Made by a program: the position numbers and the translations under genes. The notes under the pieces were generated by a model. That model was not told the DNA's origin. It was given only the letters and a program-made list of their open reading frames with translations, and made no database searches. 34,487 bases of DNA from Thermoleophilia bacterium (GTDB taxonomy: Bacteria > Actinomycetota > Thermoleophilia > Gaiellales > Gaiellaceae): assembly GCA_014534415.1 (NCBI GenBank), contig JACVRM010000002.1, positions 1 to 34,487 on the forward strand. Reading direction: 5' to 3'. Of this stretch, positions 13,106 to 24,024 are shown one piece after another. The number at the start of each line of letters is the position of its first letter. The stretch's first letter is position 1.

Positions 13106-13906
13106 ATGGAGATCTTCACGTCCGAGCTGATCGGGACGGGCATCCTGATCCTGTTCGGAGACGGTGTCGTGGCTGCGGTCCTGCTCGCGCGCTCGAAGGC
13201 CGAGAACGCGGGCTGGATCGTGATCACGTTCGGCTGGGCGATGGCGGTCGCGATGGCGGTCTACGCCGTCGGGCAGTTCAGCGGCGCGCACATCAACCCA
13301 GCGGTGACGATCAGCTTCGCGCTGACGGACTCCTTCGGCGTGGGCTGGGATGACGTTCCCAAGTACCTGCTCGGTCAATTCACCGGCGCCTTCCTCGGGG
13401 CGGTGCTCGTCTTCCTGGCGTACTTCCTGCACTGGCGCGAGACGGACGATCCGGGCCTGAAGCTGGCCGTGTTCTCGACGGGGCCCGCCATTCGCAACTA
13501 TCCGGCGAACCTCGTCACCGAGATCATCGGCACGTTCGCCCTCGTGTTCGGCGTCCTTGCGATCGTCGGCCACTTCGCGGAGGACGTGATCGGTGACGCG
13601 GCCCTGACGAGCGCTCTCGGTGCGGCGTTCCCGCCGCTGCTGATCGGCCTGCTCGTATTCGTGATCGGGCTCTCGCTCGGAGGACCGACCGGCTACGCGA
13701 TCAACCCGGCCCGCGACCTCGGGCCGCGCATCGCGCATGCCGTTCTGCCGATTCCCGGCAAGGGGACGTCGGACTGGGAGTACGCGTGGGTTCCGGTCGT
13801 CGGCCCGATCGTCGGTGGGTCGCTCGGCGCGATCGCGTACCACCTGCTCTTCGCTCCCGGCGCCGGAAACCTCGAGGTACTTCGTGCGGTAGTGCCGTTC
13901 GTCTAG
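13106..13906 (+). CDS. glpF: MIP-family glycerol facilitator/aquaporin
   Basis: Two NPA motifs (SGAHINPAVTIS, GYAINPARDLGPR), six TM segments; AAGGAGG RBS. Confidence 0.93.
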   Translation: MEIFTSELIGTGILILFGDGVVAAVLLARSKAENAGWIVITFGWAMAVAMAVYAVGQFSGAHINPAVTISFALTDSFGVGWDDVPKYLLGQFTGAFLGAVLVFLAYFLHWRETDDPGLKLAVFSTGPAIRNYPANLVTEIIGTFALVFGVLAIVGHFAEDVIGDAALTSALGAAFPPLLIGLLVFVIGLSLGGPTGYAINPARDLGPRIAHAVLPIPGKGTSDWEYAWVPVVGPIVGGSLGAIAYHLLFAPGAGNLEVLRAVVPFV

Positions 13907-13922: not shown

Positions 13923-14924
<1,002 letters not shown>

Positions 14925-14928
14925 CGGC

Positions 14929-15591
14929 GTGACGGTCTCGTACGACGACGTCCTGCGGTGGATCCAGACGTTCGCCGCGACGATGGCGGAGCAGAGGCAG
15001 TACCTGACCCGCCTCGACTCGGCGATCGGCGACGCGGACCACGGCATCAACATGGACCGCGGCATGCAGGCCGCGCTGGCGAAGGTCGACGGCCTGGCGG
15101 ACGGCGACATCGGCGCGCTCCTGAAGACGGTCGGCATGGCGCTCGTTTCGACGGTCGGCGGGGCCGGAGGCCCGCTCTACGGGACGCTCTTCCTGCAGAT
15201 GGGAATGGCTACCACCAACAAGAGCGAGCTCGGCCCCGACGACTGGCGTGCGGCGCTCGACGCGGGTCTGCAAGGCGTCCAGATGCGCGGCAAGGCCGAA
15301 CCCGGCGACAAGACGATGGTGGACGCGCTGACGCCGGCGCGGGACGCGCTCTCGGCGGCGGTCGCCGACGGTGCCTCGTTCGACGAGGCGCTGCGGCGCT
15401 CCGCCGCTGCGGCGGAGGACGGCATGCAGGCCACGATCCCGCTCGTCGCCAGGAAGGGCCGCGCGAGCTACCTGGGCGAGCGCAGCGCCGGCCACCAGGA
15501 CCCCGGCGCGACGTCGTCGTACCTGCTGCTCAGGACTGCGGCCGACACATGGGGCGGTGCTGCCGCCCCGACCGATAAGGAGGAGAGCTGA
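14929..15591 (+). CDS. dhaL: Dihydroxyacetone kinase subunit DhaL
   Basis: [45 protein letters not shown]. Start 14917 also possible. Confidence 0.94.
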
Positions 15592-17087
15592 TGGCGGACT
15601 ACGTAGGCGCGCTCGACCAGGGCACCACGAGCACGCGCTTCATGATCTTCGACCATTCCGGCCAGGTGGTCGCGATCGACCAGAAGGAGCACGAGCAGAT
15701 CTACCCGCGGCCGGGCTGGGTCGAGCACGACCCGCTGGAGATCTGGGAGCGCTCGCAGTCGGTGATTCGCACGGCGCTCGACAAGCAGGGCCTGAAGGCG
15801 AGCGACCTCGCCGCTGTCGGCGTCACGAACCAGCGCGAGACCACGGTCGTCTGGGAGCGTTCGACGGGCAAGCCGGTCTACAACGCGATCGTCTGGCAGG
15901 ACACGCGTACGGACACGTACGTCAACGAGTTCTCGAAGGACGGTGGCCAGGACCGGCTGCGCGCGAAGACCGGCCTGCCGCTCGCCACCTACTTCTCCGG
16001 CCCCAAGGTGAAATGGATCCTCGACAACGTCGAGGGCACCCGGGCGAAGGCCGAGAGCGGTGACCTGCTCTTCGGCAACATCGACACCTGGTGCATCTGG
16101 AACCTGACCGGCGGTCCCAACGGCGGCGTCCACATCACGGACGTGACGAACGCGAGCCGCACGCTGCTCATGGACCTCCAGACGCTCGACTGGGACGACG
16201 AGATTCTCGACCTGATGGGGATTCCGCGCGCGATGCTGCCGGCCATTCGGCCCTCGAGCGAGGTGTACGGCAACGCGGTCGGCGACCTGAACGGCATTCC
16301 CGTGGCCGGCGACCTCGGCGACCAGCAGGCGGCGATCTTCGGACAGACCTGCTTCTCGGTCGGAGAGGCGAAGAACACGTACGGGACGGGCAACTTCCTG
16401 CTCCTCAACACGGGCACCGAGGCGGTCGCGTCGAAGAGCGGCCTGCTCACCACGCTCGGCTACAAGATCGGCGACCAGCCGGCCGTCTACTGCCTCGAGG
16501 GCGCCATCGCCATTACCGGCGCGCTCGTGCAGTGGCTGCGCGACAACATCGGCTTGATCACGCAGTCCGCCGAGATCGAGACGCTGGCGAGCACGGTCAA
16601 GGACAACGGGGGCTGCTACTTCGTGCCCGCGTTCTCGGGCCTGTTCGCGCCGTACTGGCGGAACGATGCCCGCGGCGTGATCGCCGGGCTCACGCGCTAC
16701 GTCAACAAGGGCCACATTGCCCGGGCGGCGCTCGAGGCGACGGCCTGGCAGACGCGCGAGGTCGTGGACGCCATGAACCAGGACTCGGGCGTCGACCTGA
16801 CGTCGCTGAAGGTTGACGGCGGCATGGTCTACAACGAGGTGCTCATGCAGTTCCAGGCCGACGTGCTCGGCGTGCCGGTCATCCGGCCGACCGTCGCCGA
16901 GACGACCTCGCTCGGGGCCGCCTACGCGGCGGGCCTCGCCGTCGGGTTCTGGGCCGAGGTCGAGGACCTGCGCGCCAACTGGGGCAAGGACAAGCAGTGG
17001 GAGCCGCAGCTGGACAAGGCGGAGGTCGAGAAGGAGTACGGCTTCTGGAAGAAGGCCGTCACCCGCACGTTCGACTGGGTGGAATAG
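15591..17087 (+). CDS. glpK: Glycerol kinase
   Basis: [44 protein letters not shown], full-length FGGY kinase. Confidence 0.97.
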
Positions 17088-17089
17088 GC

Positions 17090-17118
17090 AGCCATCGCGC
17101 GCTGCGCGCCCGATGGCT
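17090..17118. terminator. Stem-loop after glpK
   Basis: AGCCATCG ... CGATGGCT, GC-rich interior. Confidence 0.4.
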
Positions 17119-17125
17119 AGAGAGG

Positions 17126-17153
17126 GAGAGGGCCGGCGCGAGCCGGCCCTCTC
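17126..17153. terminator. Probable bidirectional terminator between glpK and the convergent repeat gene
   Basis: GAGAGGGCCGGC-GCGA-GCCGGCCCTCTC, perfect 12-bp stem with GNRA-type loop, followed by TTAT. Confidence 0.75.
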
Positions 17154-17175
17154 TTATCGGGCACAGTCCCCGCGA

Positions 17176-17436
17176 TCAGTCGTTCCGCTTGCTCTCGAGA
17201 TTGCGCTCCTGACCCTCGGCGAAGTCGCCCTCTACCTCGAGTTCGGGATGGTGCTCGGCGTGCTCCTGGCCCTTCGCGAACGTGCCTTCGTGCTCGTGCT
17301 CTTCGCCGCGCTCGTGGGCGCGCCGCTCCTGGCCGCGCGCGAAGTCGCCGGACGGCTCCGCTTCCGGGTGGTGCTCCTGGGACTCCTGGCCTTCGGCGAA
17401 CGTGCCCTCGTGCACGTCCTCGTGCTCGGTTGCCAT
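17176..17436 (-). CDS. Small charged repeat protein with four G[TD]FAxGQE motifs (86 aa)
   Basis: MATEHEDVHEGTFAEGQESQEHHPEAEPSGDFARGQERRAHERGEEHEHEGTFAKGQEHAEHHPELEVEGDFAEGQERNLESKRND; AAGGAGG RBS upstream of the ATG. Confidence 0.85.
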   Translation of the reverse strand: MATEHEDVHEGTFAEGQESQEHHPEAEPSGDFARGQERRAHERGEEHEHEGTFAKGQEHAEHHPELEVEGDFAEGQERNLESKRND

Positions 17437-17531
17437 CTTGCCTCCTTAGGCTCGATCTCTCGATAACAGTCGCAGAAACGCCAGCCTCGTCGCTGGTTCG
17501 TCACCCCCGCCGGCGCTGCGATACTCGGGTC

Positions 17532-19088
17532 GTGGCTGCTCTCCAGACCGACGTGCTGGTCATCGGAGGCGGCTCCACGGGCGCGGGCGTGGCGCGTGAC
17601 GCCGCGATGCGCGGGCTCGGCACGGTGCTCGTCGAGCGCCGCGATCTCGCGGACGGGACGACAGGCCGTTTTCACGGCCTGCTGCATTCAGGCGGCCGCT
17701 ACGTCGTCAAGGACCCGCCCGCCGCGCGCGAGTGCGTCCCCGAGAACGCGATCCTGCGTCGCATCGCGGCCGACTGCATCGAGGATACGGGCGGCCTGTT
17801 CGTGACCACGCCGCCGGACGACCCGGCGTACGCCGAGCAGTTCCTCGCCGGCTGCCGAGCGACCGGCGTACCCGTCGAGGAGCTACCGGTCGGCGAGGCG
17901 CTGCAGCGCGAGCCGCGCCTCAATCCGCGCATCTCTCGCGCGTTTCTGGTTCCGGATGCCGCGATCGACCCGTGGAAGACCGTGTGGGCGTGCGCGCGTT
18001 CCGCGCAGGCGTACGGAGCGCGCATTCTCACCTACCACCGAGTCGTCGACCTCGTACGCTCCGGCGACCGAGTCGTCGGCGCGCGGCTCGCCAACGACCT
18101 GACCGGCGAGGAGGTCGGGGTCGAGGCCGCGGTCGTCGTCAACGCGTCGGGCGCCTGGGCCGGGCAGATCGCGCGCATGGCGGGCTGCGACGTCGAGATC
18201 CAGCCCGGCAAGGGGATCATGATCGCGATGAACCACAGGCTCGTGCAGACGGTGATCAACCGCTGCAAGATGCCGGCAGACGGCGACATCCTCGTCCCGA
18301 TCCGGACGGTCTCGGTGATCGGTACGACGGACGTGCGCGTGCCGGATCCCGACGAGGCCCCGGTCACGCAGGGCGAGGTCGAGCAGATGCTCGACGAGGG
18401 CGAGGTGCTCGTGCCGGGGTTCCGGCGCGCGCGTGCGCTCCGCGTCTGGGCCGGCGTGCGACCGCTCTTCCAGGAGACGAAGCCGGGGCTGGTGAGTGAC
18501 ACGCGTGACGTGAGCCGCTCGCACACGCTGCTCGACCACGCGAGGCGCGACGGTGTCGAAGGCCTCCTGACGATCACGGGCGGCAAGACGACGACGTTCC
18601 GGCTAATGGCGGAGGTGACCGTGGATGCCGTTTGCGAGCACCTCGGCGTGAAGCGGCCCTGCCGGACACACGAGGAGTCGCTGCCCGGCTCGCAGGACGG
18701 AGGCCACTACTGGCTCGGCGCGCGACTGGCGTCGCGCGAGCCGGTGCCGCGCTCGGAACAGATCGTCTGCGAGTGCGAGCTGATCACGCGCCGGAAGCTC
18801 GAGGAAGCGATCGACCGCCGCCGTACCGTCAACCTCGACGACATCCGCCGCACCCTGCGCCTGGGCATGGGCCCCTGCCAGGGCGGCTTTTGCATCTACC
18901 GCGCCACGGGCATCCTGCACGCGCGTCACGGCGTCGACGCGGAGACCGCCAACGGCTCGCTGCTCTCGTTTCTCCAGGAGCGGTGGAAGGGCGTGCATCC
19001 GATCCTGTACGGCGACCAGCTGCGTCAGGCGCACCTCGACGACTGGATCTTCCAGGGCGTCCTCAATGTGCGCGAGCTGGCGCGGTGA
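17532..19088 (+). CDS. glpA: Anaerobic glycerol-3-phosphate dehydrogenase subunit A (FAD, C-terminal BFD-like domain)
   Basis: TDVLVIGGGSTGAGVARDAAMRGLGTVLVERRDLADGTTGRFHGLLHSGGRYVVKD; C-terminal CECELITRRKLEEAI...GMGPCQGGFC. Start inferred at GTG 17532. Confidence 0.92.
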   Translation: MAALQTDVLVIGGGSTGAGVARDAAMRGLGTVLVERRDLADGTTGRFHGLLHSGGRYVVKDPPAARECVPENAILRRIAADCIEDTGGLFVTTPPDDPAYAEQFLAGCRATGVPVEELPVGEALQREPRLNPRISRAFLVPDAAIDPWKTVWACARSAQAYGARILTYHRVVDLVRSGDRVVGARLANDLTGEEVGVEAAVVVNASGAWAGQIARMAGCDVEIQPGKGIMIAMNHRLVQTVINRCKMPADGDILVPIRTVSVIGTTDVRVPDPDEAPVTQGEVEQMLDEGEVLVPGFRRARALRVWAGVRPLFQETKPGLVSDTRDVSRSHTLLDHARRDGVEGLLTITGGKTTTFRLMAEVTVDAVCEHLGVKRPCRTHEESLPGSQDGGHYWLGARLASREPVPRSEQIVCECELITRRKLEEAIDRRRTVNLDDIRRTLRLGMGPCQGGFCIYRATGILHARHGVDAETANGSLLSFLQERWKGVHPILYGDQLRQAHLDDWIFQGVLNVRELAR

Positions 19089-20329
19089 CGTACGACGCGG
19101 TGGTCGTCGGCATCGGCGTGGCGGGCCTGACGGCTGCGCTTCGGCTCGCCGAGCACGGCCGGCGCGTCCTCGTGGTGGCCAAAGGCGTGGGCTCTACGCA
19201 CCTCGCTCCCGGCCGCCTCGACATTCTGGGCTACGCGGCCGGCGGACAACGGATCGAGCGGCCCGCCGCTGCGCTCGGCGCCTTTCTCGCGGAGCGCCCC
19301 GACCATCCCTATGCGCGCGTCGGTGCCCGCACGCTCTCCGAGTCCGCCGAGTGGTTTCGTGCGCGGCTGGGCTACGTCGGCTCGGCCGACGAGAACTTCT
19401 TGCTGCCGACCGCGCTCGGAGCTGTCAAACCGACCGCCGTCGTACCGCCCAGTGCGGTGGGCGGCGATCTGCGTACGGGCGGGCGCTTCTTGATCGTCGG
19501 CCTCCAGGGGCTCAAGGACTTCTTTCCGGCGCTCTGCGCGGCCAACCTTCAGAACGCCGCGCCGGTGCGCGCGCGCGCCGTCGAGCTGCACCCGCCGCTC
19601 GGCGGCGAGCATGACGTGAATGGACTCGGCTTTGCCGGTCGCTTCGAGGACGAGCCGTTCCGCGAAGCGGTCGTTCGTGAGCTGCGCATCACGTTCGCTC
19701 CCGGCGAGCGGGTCGGCTTCCCGGCCGTCCTCGGGCTGCGCGAAGCGGAAGGCGTCTGGCGCGAGCTTGAGGAGCGCGTGCGTACGCGGGTGTTCGAGAT
19801 ACCGACGCTGCCTCCCTCGGTGCCCGGGATCCGCATGTTCGAGTCGCTCCGCTCCGCGCTGCGCGCGGCGGGGGCGCGCATCGTTGTCGGCGACGCCGTC
19901 GTCCGCGCGCGCACGAGTGGGCGGAGAGTCGAGGCAGTCGTCGCCGAGGCGGCGGGGCGCACCGTCGAGTACAGCGGGGAAAGCTTCGTGCTCGCGACCG
20001 GCGGCTTCGCGTCGGGCGGGCTGGAGCTCGGCTCGGACGGAGCGGCGCGCGAGACCGTTCTCGGGTTGCCGATCGCCGGCTTGCCGCCGCACGGCGAGCG
20101 TTTCTCGCCGGAGTACCTGGGCGTGCAGCCGTTCGCCCGCGCCGGGCTGGCGGTCGACGAGCGACTCCGTCCGCTCGGCGAGGACGGCAACGTCGCCTAC
20201 GAGAACCTGTACGCGGCGGGCGCGACGCTCGGCGGCGCCGAGCCCTGGCGGGAAGCGTCGGGCGAGGGAATCAGCGTGGCCACGGGCTTTGCGGCCGCCG
20301 AGGCGATCGTCCAGAGTACGGCCCGATGA
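19085..20329 (+). CDS. glpB: Anaerobic glycerol-3-phosphate dehydrogenase subunit B
   Basis: YDAVVVGIGVAGLTAALRLAEHGRRVLVVAKGVGSTHLAPGRLDILGY; GTGA overlap with glpA; between glpA and glpC. Confidence 0.88.
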   Translation: MTYDAVVVGIGVAGLTAALRLAEHGRRVLVVAKGVGSTHLAPGRLDILGYAAGGQRIERPAAALGAFLAERPDHPYARVGARTLSESAEWFRARLGYVGSADENFLLPTALGAVKPTAVVPPSAVGGDLRTGGRFLIVGLQGLKDFFPALCAANLQNAAPVRARAVELHPPLGGEHDVNGLGFAGRFEDEPFREAVVRELRITFAPGERVGFPAVLGLREAEGVWRELEERVRTRVFEIPTLPPSVPGIRMFESLRSALRAAGARIVVGDAVVRARTSGRRVEAVVAEAAGRTVEYSGESFVLATGGFASGGLELGSDGAARETVLGLPIAGLPPHGERFSPEYLGVQPFARAGLAVDERLRPLGEDGNVAYENLYAAGATLGGAEPWREASGEGISVATGFAAAEAIVQSTAR

Positions 20330-21525
20330 GCAGCGTTCGCGAGACGCTCGACCACTGTGTCAAGTGCACGATCTGCGAGACGTTCTGCCCGTACTCCAAG
20401 GCGACGCCGCTGTTCCCCGGACCGAAGTACGTCGGCCCGCAGGCGGAGCGCTTCCGCGGGACGGAGGGCTCCCCGGACTACTCGCTCGACTACTGCTCGG
20501 GGTGCGGCATCTGCACGCAGGTGTGCCCTCAGGGCGTGAAGATCGCGGAGATCAACTCGCAGGCCCGCGCCGAGCTCTGGGAGGAGCGCGGCATTCCGCT
20601 CCGGAACCGTATCGTTGCCCGTCCGAGCGTTACGGGGGCACTCGGCACGCCCGTCGCGCCGCTGGCAAACCTGACGCTGCGCGCGCGTCCGGCGCGCTGG
20701 GCGCTCGAGCGCACGCTCGGCATCGACCGGCGTGCGCCGCTGCCGCGCTTCGCGGGGCGCACGTTCCAGGCCTGGGCTCGGCGCAGGCGGGGCCCGCAAG
20801 CCGCGAGCGGCACGGTCGCCTACTTCCACGGCTGCAGCACGAACTACTACGAGCCCGAGACGGGCGAGCGTGTCGTGGAACTGCTCGAGCACAACGGCTT
20901 CCGCGTGGTCGTGCCGCGCCAGGGCTGCTGCGGTCTGCCTCTCCAGTCGAACGGAGACTTCCCGGCGGCGCGCCGGTACGCCAGCCGTCTCGCCGCAACG
21001 CTCGACGCCGCCGGGGAGGGGGCACCGATCGTCTCCAACTCGACGAGCTGCAGCCTGATGCTGAAGCGCGAGGCGCTCGAGATCCTCGAGGTCGACGACG
21101 AGGCGCTGCGGCGGGTCAGCGAGCGGACGTACGACGTCTGCGAGTTCCTGCTCGGCCTCCACGAGCGCGGCGAGCTGCGCACGGACTTCCAGCCGCTGCC
21201 GCTCACCGTGCCGTACCACGCTCCCTGCCAGCAGCGCGGCCACGGCATCGGCAAGCCGGCGCTCGACCTGCTCGCGCTCATTCCCGAGCTCCGCCTCGTC
21301 GAGCTGGACGCGGCCTGCTGCGGGATCGCCGGCACGTACGGCCTCAAGCGCGAGAAGTACGAGATCTCGATGCGGGTCGGCGAGGAGCTCTTCGCGCAGG
21401 TCCGCGACGCCGAGCCAGACCTGACGGCCTGCGACAGCGAGACGTGCCGCTGGCAGATCACGCACGGGACGGGCGTCCCGAGCGTGCACCCGGTCGAGCT
21501 CCTGCACCGCGCCTACGGCCTGTAA
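20326..21525 (+). CDS. glpC: Anaerobic glycerol-3-phosphate dehydrogenase subunit C (Fe-S, CCG domains)
   Basis: CVKCTICETFCPYSKATPLFPGPKYVGPQAERFR, CSGCGICTQVCPQGVKI, two CCG-type motifs (GCCGLPLQSNGDF, ACCGIAGTYGLK). Confidence 0.94.
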   Translation: MSSVRETLDHCVKCTICETFCPYSKATPLFPGPKYVGPQAERFRGTEGSPDYSLDYCSGCGICTQVCPQGVKIAEINSQARAELWEERGIPLRNRIVARPSVTGALGTPVAPLANLTLRARPARWALERTLGIDRRAPLPRFAGRTFQAWARRRRGPQAASGTVAYFHGCSTNYYEPETGERVVELLEHNGFRVVVPRQGCCGLPLQSNGDFPAARRYASRLAATLDAAGEGAPIVSNSTSCSLMLKREALEILEVDDEALRRVSERTYDVCEFLLGLHERGELRTDFQPLPLTVPYHAPCQQRGHGIGKPALDLLALIPELRLVELDAACCGIAGTYGLKREKYEISMRVGEELFAQVRDAEPDLTACDSETCRWQITHGTGVPSVHPVELLHRAYGL

Positions 21526-21531
21526 CGCGCC

Positions 21532-24024
21532 ATGGTCGGCATCGTCCTCGTCTCGCACAGCGCCGCGCTCGCGGAAGGCGTGGCGGAGCTCGCTCGCGGC
21601 ATGGCCGGCGACGTGGCCGTCGAGGCGGCGGGCGGGCTGGACACGCAGGAGCCCGCGCTCGGCACCGATGCGGCGCGCGTGCTGGCGGCCGTCGAGCGGG
21701 CGGACACGGGCGACGGCGCGCTCGTGCTCATGGACCTGGGTAGCGCCGTGCTGTCTGCCGAGCTGGCGCTCGACTTCCTTCCTGAGGACCGGCGCGCGCG
21801 AGTGCTCCTCTCGGCGGCGCCGCTCGTGGAGGGCGCAGTCGCCGCCGCCGTCGCCGCGCAGGCCGGCGCGCCGCTCGAGCAGGTCGCGGCCGAGGCCCGA
21901 GGCGGGCTCGCGCCGAAGGCGGCGCACCTCGGTGAAGAGCCGGCGGAGGCGGCGCCCGTCTCTCCCGCGCGGAGCACGCACGAGCTGCGGCTCGACGTGC
22001 GAAACCGGCTCGGACTGCACGCGCGGCCGGCCGCGCGCTTCGTGCGCACCGCCGCCGGCTTCGACGCCGACGTGACGGTCGTCAACGTCACGACCGGACG
22101 CGGGCCGGCCAGCGCACGCAGCCTCAATGCGCTGGCCACCCTGGGGGTGCGGCAGGGACACCAGATCGCCGTCGCGGCGAGCGGGCCGGATGCGGAACGC
22201 GTCCTGGACGCACTCCGCGCGCTCGCCGAGCGCGACTTCGACGATCTCGAGGACGAGCTTCCGGCGGCTCCCGTCGTGGCGCGGGTGGCGCCGTCGGCGG
22301 CTCGCCGCGACGGCGCGCTGGCCGGCCTGCCGGTCTCGCCTGGCACGGCCGTCGGTGAAGTCGCGCGACTGCGGGTCGAGCTCCCACCCGCGCCGTTGGA
22401 TCCCGCGCAGGACCGCGACGCCGAGCTCGTCGCGCTCGACGTGGCGCTCGCGAACGCACGTCGCGAGATCACGACGGCTCGCGACAGCGTCGCGGTCCGC
22501 GCGTCGGCGCAACAGGCCGCGATCTTCGACGCGCACCTGCTGCTCCTCGAAGACGAGGCGCTCGTCGGTGCGGCGCGACGCCGCGTCGCCGAGGACGGCG
22601 TCCGCGCCGCGCGCGCGTGGGAGCTCGCACTGGCCGACGCCGAAGCCGCCTGGGACGCGGTGGACGATCCGTACCTGCGCGAGCGCGCGGGCGACGTCCG
22701 CGCCGTCGGGCGGCATGTGCTCGCGCACCTGCTCGGCGTCCAGGCTGCGCCCGTTGCGGCCGCGGGCGTCGTGGTCGCGCCCGATCTCACGCCGGCGGAA
22801 ACGGCCACGCTCGACCCCGGCTCCGTGCGCGGCATTGCGACGGCGTACGGGGGTCCGACCTCGCACAGCGCCATCCTCGCGCGCTCGCTCGGCGTGCCGG
22901 CGGTCGCCGGTCTGGGTGCCGAGCTGCTCGAGCTGGCGGAGGGCACGGTCGTGGCTCTGGACGGCGACGAGGGCCTTCTCATTCCCGACCCGCCGCCCGG
23001 CGTGACGGCGGCGTTCGAGGCGCGGGCCGTGGCTCGCGCGGAGCGTCAGCGCTCGCTGCGTGATGCGGCCCAGCAGCCGGCGCGGACGCTCGACGGAACG
23101 CACGTCGAGGTCGCCGCCAACGTCGGCTCGGAGGCCGATGCCGCAGCCGCGCTGGCGGCCGGCGCCGACGCCGTCGGACTGCTGCGGACCGAGTTCCTGT
23201 TCGTGGGACGCTCGGCGATGCCCGACGAACTCGAGCAGGCAGCCGCCTACGGGGCGGTGGCGCGCGCGCTGGACGGCCGGCCGGTCGTCCTGCGCACTCT
23301 CGACGTCGGTGCCGACAAGCCGCTCCCGTACGTCGAGCAGCAGCCCGAGGCGAACCCGTTCCTCGGAACGCGCGGCATCCGGCTCGCGCTCGCACGGCCG
23401 GAGCTGCTGACGACGCAGCTGCGCGCGCTGCTGCGGGCTGCGGCCGACCACCGCTTCCGCGTCATGTTTCCGATGGTCGCCTCGCTCGCCGAGTACCGCG
23501 AGGCGGTCGCGCTGCTCGCGCGCTGCCGGGACGAGCTCGCCGCCGAAGGGACGGTCACGGGCGAGGTCGAGGTGGGCGTGATGGTGGAGGTGCCGGCCGC
23601 CGCGCTGACGGCCGGAGCCTTCGCGCGAGAGGTCGACTTCTTCTCGATCGGAACGAACGACCTCTCCCAGTACACCGCCGCGGCAGAGCGCGGCAACCCC
23701 AACGTCGCGGCGCTCGCCGACGCGCTCACCCCGCCCGTCCTGCGGCTGATCGCCCTCGTCGGCGATGCGGCTGAGCGGCACGGGCGCTGGGCCGGTGTGT
23801 GCGGCGAGCTCGCCGCCGACCCGGCCGCCGTGCCCGTGCTCCTCGGGCTCGGCGTCCGCGAGCTCAGCGTCGCGCCGCCGTTCGTGGCCGCCGTCAAGGA
23901 CGCCGTTCGCGCCGTCGACCTCGACGAGGCGCGACGCCTCGCGGCCGCGGCCCTCGAGCTCGACTCGGCGCACGCGGTGCGCGAGCTCGTCGCGCGCCGG
24001 ACGCGGGAGGCCGCGCCGGCATGA
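21532..24024 (+). CDS. dhaM: DhaM-HPr-Enzyme I fusion (PTS-dependent dihydroxyacetone phosphotransferase subunit)
   Basis: DhaM EIIA (IVLVSHSAALAEG, LVLMDLGSAVLSAE), HPr (VRNRLGLHARPAARFV), EI (GGPTSHSAILARSLGVPAV, SIGTNDLSQYTAAAERGNPNVA, GVCGELAADP). Confidence 0.95.
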   Translation: MVGIVLVSHSAALAEGVAELARGMAGDVAVEAAGGLDTQEPALGTDAARVLAAVERADTGDGALVLMDLGSAVLSAELALDFLPEDRRARVLLSAAPLVEGAVAAAVAAQAGAPLEQVAAEARGGLAPKAAHLGEEPAEAAPVSPARSTHELRLDVRNRLGLHARPAARFVRTAAGFDADVTVVNVTTGRGPASARSLNALATLGVRQGHQIAVAASGPDAERVLDALRALAERDFDDLEDELPAAPVVARVAPSAARRDGALAGLPVSPGTAVGEVARLRVELPPAPLDPAQDRDAELVALDVALANARREITTARDSVAVRASAQQAAIFDAHLLLLEDEALVGAARRRVAEDGVRAARAWELALADAEAAWDAVDDPYLRERAGDVRAVGRHVLAHLLGVQAAPVAAAGVVVAPDLTPAETATLDPGSVRGIATAYGGPTSHSAILARSLGVPAVAGLGAELLELAEGTVVALDGDEGLLIPDPPPGVTAAFEARAVARAERQRSLRDAAQQPARTLDGTHVEVAANVGSEADAAAALAAGADAVGLLRTEFLFVGRSAMPDELEQAAAYGAVARALDGRPVVLRTLDVGADKPLPYVEQQPEANPFLGTRGIRLALARPELLTTQLRALLRAAADHRFRVMFPMVASLAEYREAVALLARCRDELAAEGTVTGEVEVGVMVEVPAAALTAGAFAREVDFFSIGTNDLSQYTAAAERGNPNVAALADALTPPVLRLIALVGDAAERHGRWAGVCGELAADPAAVPVLLGLGVRELSVAPPFVAAVKDAVRAVDLDEARRLAAAALELDSAHAVRELVARRTREAAPA

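Follow-up and report, generated by a model that had tools for sequence, protein, structure and literature searches.

The small gene and its setting

The window analysed here, the whole stretch of 34,487 nucleotides from a Thermoleophilia bacterium (assembly 71% complete, 1.9 Mb), contains a glycerol/dihydroxyacetone (DHA) cluster in which an open reading frame for an 86-residue repeat protein is lodged between glpK and glpA. Is this frame a gene, and what could its product do among the enzymes of glycerol use? According to Pfam the cluster on the plus strand is complete, its gene names having been assigned from Pfam domains and gene order (Table 1). One of its products unites DhaM, HPr and EI in a single 830-aa protein and constitutes a self-contained phosphorelay for the DHA kinase. 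The small gene is transcribed opposite to both of its neighbours, glpK and glpA, as the initial annotation had described.

Table 1. Features in and around the glycerol/DHA cluster (positions are those of the window)
Feature	Position	Strand	Basis
glpF-like aquaglyceroporin (MIP, PF00230)	13106..13906	+	Pfam domain
dhaK (Dak1, PF02733)	13923..14924	+	Pfam domain
dhaL (Dak2, PF02734)	14917..15591	+	Pfam domain
glpK glycerol kinase (FGGY_N + FGGY_C)	15591..17087	+	Pfam domains
Perfect 12-bp inverted repeat GAGAGGGCCGGC-GCGA-GCCGGCCCTCTC, located where the 3' ends of glpK and the small gene face each other	17126..17153		read directly
Gene of the 86-aa four-motif GxFAxGQE protein, unnamed family; ATG start	17176..17436	-	ORF translation and homologues
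Motif 4 codons (GDFAEGQE, residues 70-77)	17206..17229	-	
Motif 3 codons (GTFAKGQE, residues 51-58)	17263..17286	-	
Motif 2 codons (GDFARGQE, residues 30-37)	17326..17349	-	
Motif 1 codons (GTFAEGQE, residues 11-18)	17383..17406	-	
Ribosome-binding site TAAGGAGG, 5' of the small-gene ATG	17441..17448	-	read from sequence
CTGCGATACT just upstream of glpA (candidate -10 region)	17516..17525	+	kept in window, G019, G013, G021 (window, L027, L058, L059)
glpA-like glycerol-3-phosphate dehydrogenase (DAO + BFD-like [2Fe-2S]); GTG start	17532..19088	+	Pfam domains
glpB-like FAD protein	19085..20329	+	Pfam scan
glpC-like iron-sulfur/CCG protein	20326..21525	+	Pfam scan
DhaM-HPr-EI fusion (EIIA-man, PTS-HPr, PEP-utilizers)	21532..24024	+	Pfam domains

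The start of the small gene carries TAAGGAGGCAAG directly before the ATG, and the ribosome-binding site, already called strong in the initial annotation, has Shine-Dalgarno-like counterparts upstream of nearly all relatives. The window gene and its homologue in the genome G019 differ at 19, 16 and 36 sites in codon positions 1, 2 and 3, respectively, and 19 identical residues are encoded by different codons. Judged from such sequence comparison, the small ORF is a real coding gene, since the differences among its homologues fall mostly at third codon positions and leave the protein conserved. A spurious ORF is ruled out by the homologues in two phyla, the third-position bias of the changes and the good ribosome-binding sites.

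The inverted repeat beyond its 3' end is likely to be a bidirectional terminator, predicted although it lacks the T run which the scanner needs; indeed, a scan of positions 17050-17620 for consensus promoters and terminators returned no match, including at the repeat. On the other side of the small gene, the 3' end of CTGCGATACT is 6 nt from the GTG of glpA. This sequence may be the -10 region of a promoter that gives glpA an almost leaderless transcript, in which case transcription of glpA could be independent of that of glpK. In the genome G013, the glpK-glpA gap (L058 9980-10170) is full of palindromic GGGGACTGTCCC-type repeats, and in the window a similar sequence, CACAGTCCCCG, is found at the small gene's 3' end.

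A family of four-motif proteins

The initial annotation had recognised four G[TD]FAxGQE motifs arranged in a two-fold duplicated unit. Translation bears out the four matches to G.FA.GQE (pattern G[TD]FA[ERK]GQE, with spacings of 19, 21 and 19 residues), and in 200,000 shuffles of the protein one match occurred in 16 and more than one in none. The duplication is also apparent, as the two 29-residue halves (HEGTFAEGQE...GDFARGQE and HEGTFAKGQE...GDFAEGQE) are identical at 22/29 residues and 62/87 nucleotides. The product had further been described as extremely rich in Glu, His and Gln, which is true of the first two (22 E, 10 H) and only mildly so of Gln (5 Q); it contains 9 Gly and neither Cys nor Trp, with a net charge of -18.

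The distribution and neighbours of the repeat, which the initial annotation had proposed to check, were surveyed by tblastn and profile searches. Relatives were detected at 44 loci, spread over 31 genomes from two phyla, namely in the order, class and phylum of the window and in Chloroflexi-titled records. For these counts, G400 and G1016, which have identical contig coordinates, were counted once, two loci whose match is interrupted by a stop and which yielded no motif ORF were excluded (L005 of G052 and L016 of G061), and two weak compositional matches in the window's own genome (L002, L003) were set aside; a remote two-motif relative (G040:C82, L126) is not in the four-motif count. If an additional F/Y-Pro of three proteins is disregarded, exactly four motif aromatics are present in 30 of the 31 representative members, and they are nearly the only aromatics in the 31 sequences. 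The modal spacing is 19 residues (46 of 94 intervals are exactly 19). Column by column, the motif reads G (82%), D/S/R/T, F or Y (99%), A/S (92%), any residue, G (94%), Q/E (82%) and E (65%), with a common core of G-x-F-A/S-x-G-x-E. The linkers vary in charge and His: most are strongly acidic, with a few neutral or basic exceptions (G019:C7, G808, G910:C131), the His content of relatives ranges from 0 to 19% with no His conserved family-wide, and Cys is absent from all 31 members. The conservation of motif, number and spacing while linkers differ argues that selection keeps the design and not the His and Glu of the linkers.

We propose to define a four-motif GxFAxGxE family by its architecture (a protein of about 70-115 residues containing four F-centred motifs at intervals of about 19), to which the window protein belongs. 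As far as sequence alone can tell, it is an unnamed bacterial family of small, mostly acidic and apparently disordered proteins. The initial annotation had likewise recognised no named function. Pfam and NCBIfam gave no match above cut-off for the window protein or the other members scanned, the best matches being far below the cut-offs, and a PDB profile search gave no relative of the family; these searches rule out a known curated family, membership of which had been named as what would refute the first reading. The window protein had no match in plasmid and phage records either, and a mobile-element or phage gene is ruled out on that ground. Literature queries with the motif strings, or on the glycerol cluster in Thermoleophilia or Chloroflexi, found no paper, and a wider one yielded nothing beyond general papers on small proteins and a lead to KGG proteins. 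Repeat units of the KGG/YciG type are about 20 residues long and contain G-x-F. These proteins (PF10685) are the nearest known kind by look, being small, hydrophilic and repeat-built like the window family. However, the window family is mostly acidic and fixed at four repeats, an hmmscan of 15 members had no match to the PF10685 model at E values up to 10, and the KGG tripeptide (as defined in PMC9262955) occurs in 0 of 31 members.

Association with glycerol and dihydroxyacetone genes

In the initial annotation the glycerol cluster was no more than a setting. The location is correct, and in addition the association recurs across genomes and phyla and is, as read from gene neighbourhoods, the main clue to the function of the small protein. 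Indeed, 26 of the 44 family loci are within about 2.2 kb of genes of a glpF-dhaK-dhaL-glpK-glpABC-dhaM/HPr/EI cluster, as scored by tblastn of the eight cluster proteins of the window against 43 loci and by neighbour reading. These loci show at least six arrangements on both strands. Briefly, the small gene lies between glpK and glpA, either flipped (window, G019:C14) or on the same strand (G040, G400, G712, G836, G859, G900, G910, G939, G949, G1026); beside glpA at a contig end (G561:C5, a copy with an in-frame TGA); upstream of glpF (G399, G402, G485); directly upstream of dhaL with a 4-base overlap (G401); beside an IclR-type regulator, glpF and glpK (G308, G367 with two copies, G371); beside a plsC-like gene and glpF (G817, G867:C245); or downstream of glpC or dhaM/EI (G1004, G831, G352). 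That place and strand change yet the linkage stays argues for selection on the association and not for passive descent. The gene is nevertheless accessory and dispensable for the cluster as such, because the close relatives G013 and G021 keep the same cluster without it, with a short glpK-glpA gap and no remnant.

The remaining 18 loci are outside the cluster or not visibly in it, so some members may act on something other than glycerol enzymes; neighbours of some of these copies, named by eye and not by profile search, are formate dehydrogenase, sigma/anti-sigma, MarR and groEL genes.

Co-occurrence with dhaK extends the association beyond immediate neighbours. In a sample of 397 genomes of the phylum, the family is present in 15 and dhaK in 127, with both in 14 of the 15 (Fisher p 8e-7, not phylogeny-corrected), and in 61 genomes of relatives dhaK is present in 3/3 family-positive genomes as against 7/61 overall (Fisher p 0.001, not phylogeny-corrected). 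The samples are phylogenetically non-independent, the family matches of the phylum sample being nearly all in families f13 and f19; other dhaK-bearing families of that sample are without the small gene. In the Chloroflexi group dhaK is found in 33/111 genomes, but in all family-positive genomes checked. Taken together, 30 of the 31 family-positive genomes contain dhaK (the exception is G808), compared with about 30% generally, and G170, G525, G659 and G759, whose family copies are unlinked to the cluster, have dhaK nonetheless. This pattern, not phylogeny-corrected, points strongly to a tie between the family and glycerol/DHA metabolism.

In one bacterial family (L114 9073-9938, L112, L113), a DJ-1/PfpI-like gene follows the small gene with a 4-base overlap. 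In other bacteria, proteins of the DJ-1/PfpI type have been connected with methylglyoxal damage, and this neighbour is possibly a tie to DHA phosphate.

Predicted disorder and composition

Predictions indicate that the 86-aa protein is intrinsically disordered, in agreement with the initial annotation. In the charge-hydropathy plot it lies well within the disordered region (0.304, the boundary being 0.488). No confident fold for the motif came from AlphaFold2: the single sequence yielded a mean pLDDT of 61 and a pTM of 0.18, with an uncertain helix beginning at each of motifs 2 and 4, and four added homologues yielded 59 and 0.13 without helices. Such low confidence is compatible with disorder and not proof of it, and it speaks neither for nor against folding on binding. 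The composition is that of a hydrophilin, a class for which a hydrophilicity index above 1 and more than 6% glycine are required (PMC7448490). The window protein has 10.5% glycine and a hydrophilicity of 1.76 (GRAVY -1.76); relatives have 7-17% glycine and GRAVY values from -0.87 to -2.18, a few of them at or just below the hydrophilin line. The window protein thus resembles LEA proteins, RMF and other hydrophilins. However, these form a class defined by composition, whereas the present family keeps a design of four conserved motifs and is linked to a catabolic cluster.

Proposed function and alternatives

The explanation that we favour, while giving it somewhat less than an even chance, is an acidic disordered accessory protein whose four docking motifs act on the glycerol/DHA pathway. 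We infer it from the conservation of the motif against drifting linkers, the fixed valence, the cluster linkage and the co-occurrence with dhaK; linkers that vary freely are as expected for docking motifs on a disordered chain. The docking motif would be G-[DST/R]-F-[AS]-x-G-[QE]-E, borne in four copies by a flexible, charged chain at intervals of about 19 residues. Its four Phe would bind the surface of an oligomeric partner (candidates are GlpK, glycerol-3-phosphate dehydrogenase, DhaK/DhaL and the GlpF tetramer), or the motifs may bind each other, and binding would tether, cluster or protect the enzymes of the pathway during glycerol use. A D, S or T ahead of F-A-x-G would suit a helix N-cap, which would fit folding on binding. 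Comparable multivalent disordered enzyme linkers are EPYC1, CsoS2 and CP12, in which short motifs repeated on a flexible chain act with a metabolic pathway. The likeness is one of mode only: the family may work like these proteins and is not a member of them, and the PDB profile search returned no sequence relation.

What was an orphan small ORF is now a family of strict design with a strong genomic lead to one pathway, and its recurrent placement in glycerol-using clusters makes a role in glycerol metabolism testable. A conserved repeat number is unusual in a disordered protein and points to a defined valence. Docking as proposed here predicts a glycerol-dependent phenotype, a partner among a handful of neighbouring enzymes and a loss on Phe-to-Ala change. 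A bolder extension, which we regard as improbable, is a four-sticker scaffold of fixed valence that would gather tetrameric GlpK, GlpF or glycerol-3-phosphate dehydrogenase into a glycerol assembly or condensate, the unlinked paralogues doing likewise for other enzymes, e.g. formate dehydrogenase, as a general bacterial scaffold family.

The main rival, rather unlikely in our view, is a protectant of hydrophilin/LEA type, an abundant disordered shield of enzymes or membranes in drying, osmotic or solvent stress, which would have no specific partner and would accompany glycerol genes because glycerol uptake accompanies stress. The stress/hydration role suggested in the initial annotation is of this kind and is partly supported by the predicted disorder and the hydrophilin-like composition. 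Both composition values given above suit such a shield, as does the position of a relative after groES-groEL (L032) and of others beside MarR, sigma or anti-sigma genes, and KGG proteins, small repeat proteins reported as stress-induced (PMC9262955), are a precedent. However, a general shield would not need a fixed set of four strictly conserved Phe motifs, hydrophilins being a composition class and not a family, and general stress leaves the linkage to one catabolic cluster unexplained.

That the small gene is a passenger of general function that travelled with the glycerol cluster, its linkage being uninformative, is quite improbable. The 18 unlinked loci are in line with such a passenger, and the paralogues beside groEL, sigma/anti-sigma, MarR and formate dehydrogenase genes suit a broader function; the cluster may itself move between phyla, as DhaK of the Chloroflexi loci is 75-80% identical to that of the window. 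Against this, the linkage persists through widely differing positions and strands, and unlinked copies are still in dhaK-bearing genomes.

In some bacteria glycerol kinase is under the control of HPr phosphorylation, and the DhaM-HPr-EI fusion is encoded in the cluster, so that a small regulator, as modulator or phospho-target of this phosphorelay through its many His and acidic residues, was considered. It is very unlikely: no His is conserved across the family and many members are beside glpK/glpA and not dhaM. Finally, the metal buffering through His/Glu raised in the initial annotation is hardly credible and unsupported as a family-wide function, given the non-conserved His, which lie outside the conserved motif in a family free of Cys and whose examined loci showed no noticed metal transporter or metal regulator, despite the 10 His of the window protein and the HDHDHHHDHD-type N-termini of Chloroflexi members.

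Paralogues outside the cluster

The unlinked paralogues beside formate dehydrogenase, MarR and sigma-factor genes offer parallel cases to the docking proposed for the glycerol enzymes. A near-perfect four-repeat paralogue (GPDFARGERTKPTPDE) adjoins a formate dehydrogenase-like gene in two genomes (L115 9198-9407, L116 3438-3629). Paralogues of a GRFSxGxE type are beside related MarR-type regulators in three genomes (L028 ~1400-1780, L033 8380-8592 and L126 6105-6317, the last with two motifs only). At L107 (7802-8407, minus strand), an ORF with a receiver-like N-terminal part is continuous and in frame with a four-motif protein, no stop lying between them, which represents either a fusion or an overlapping start.
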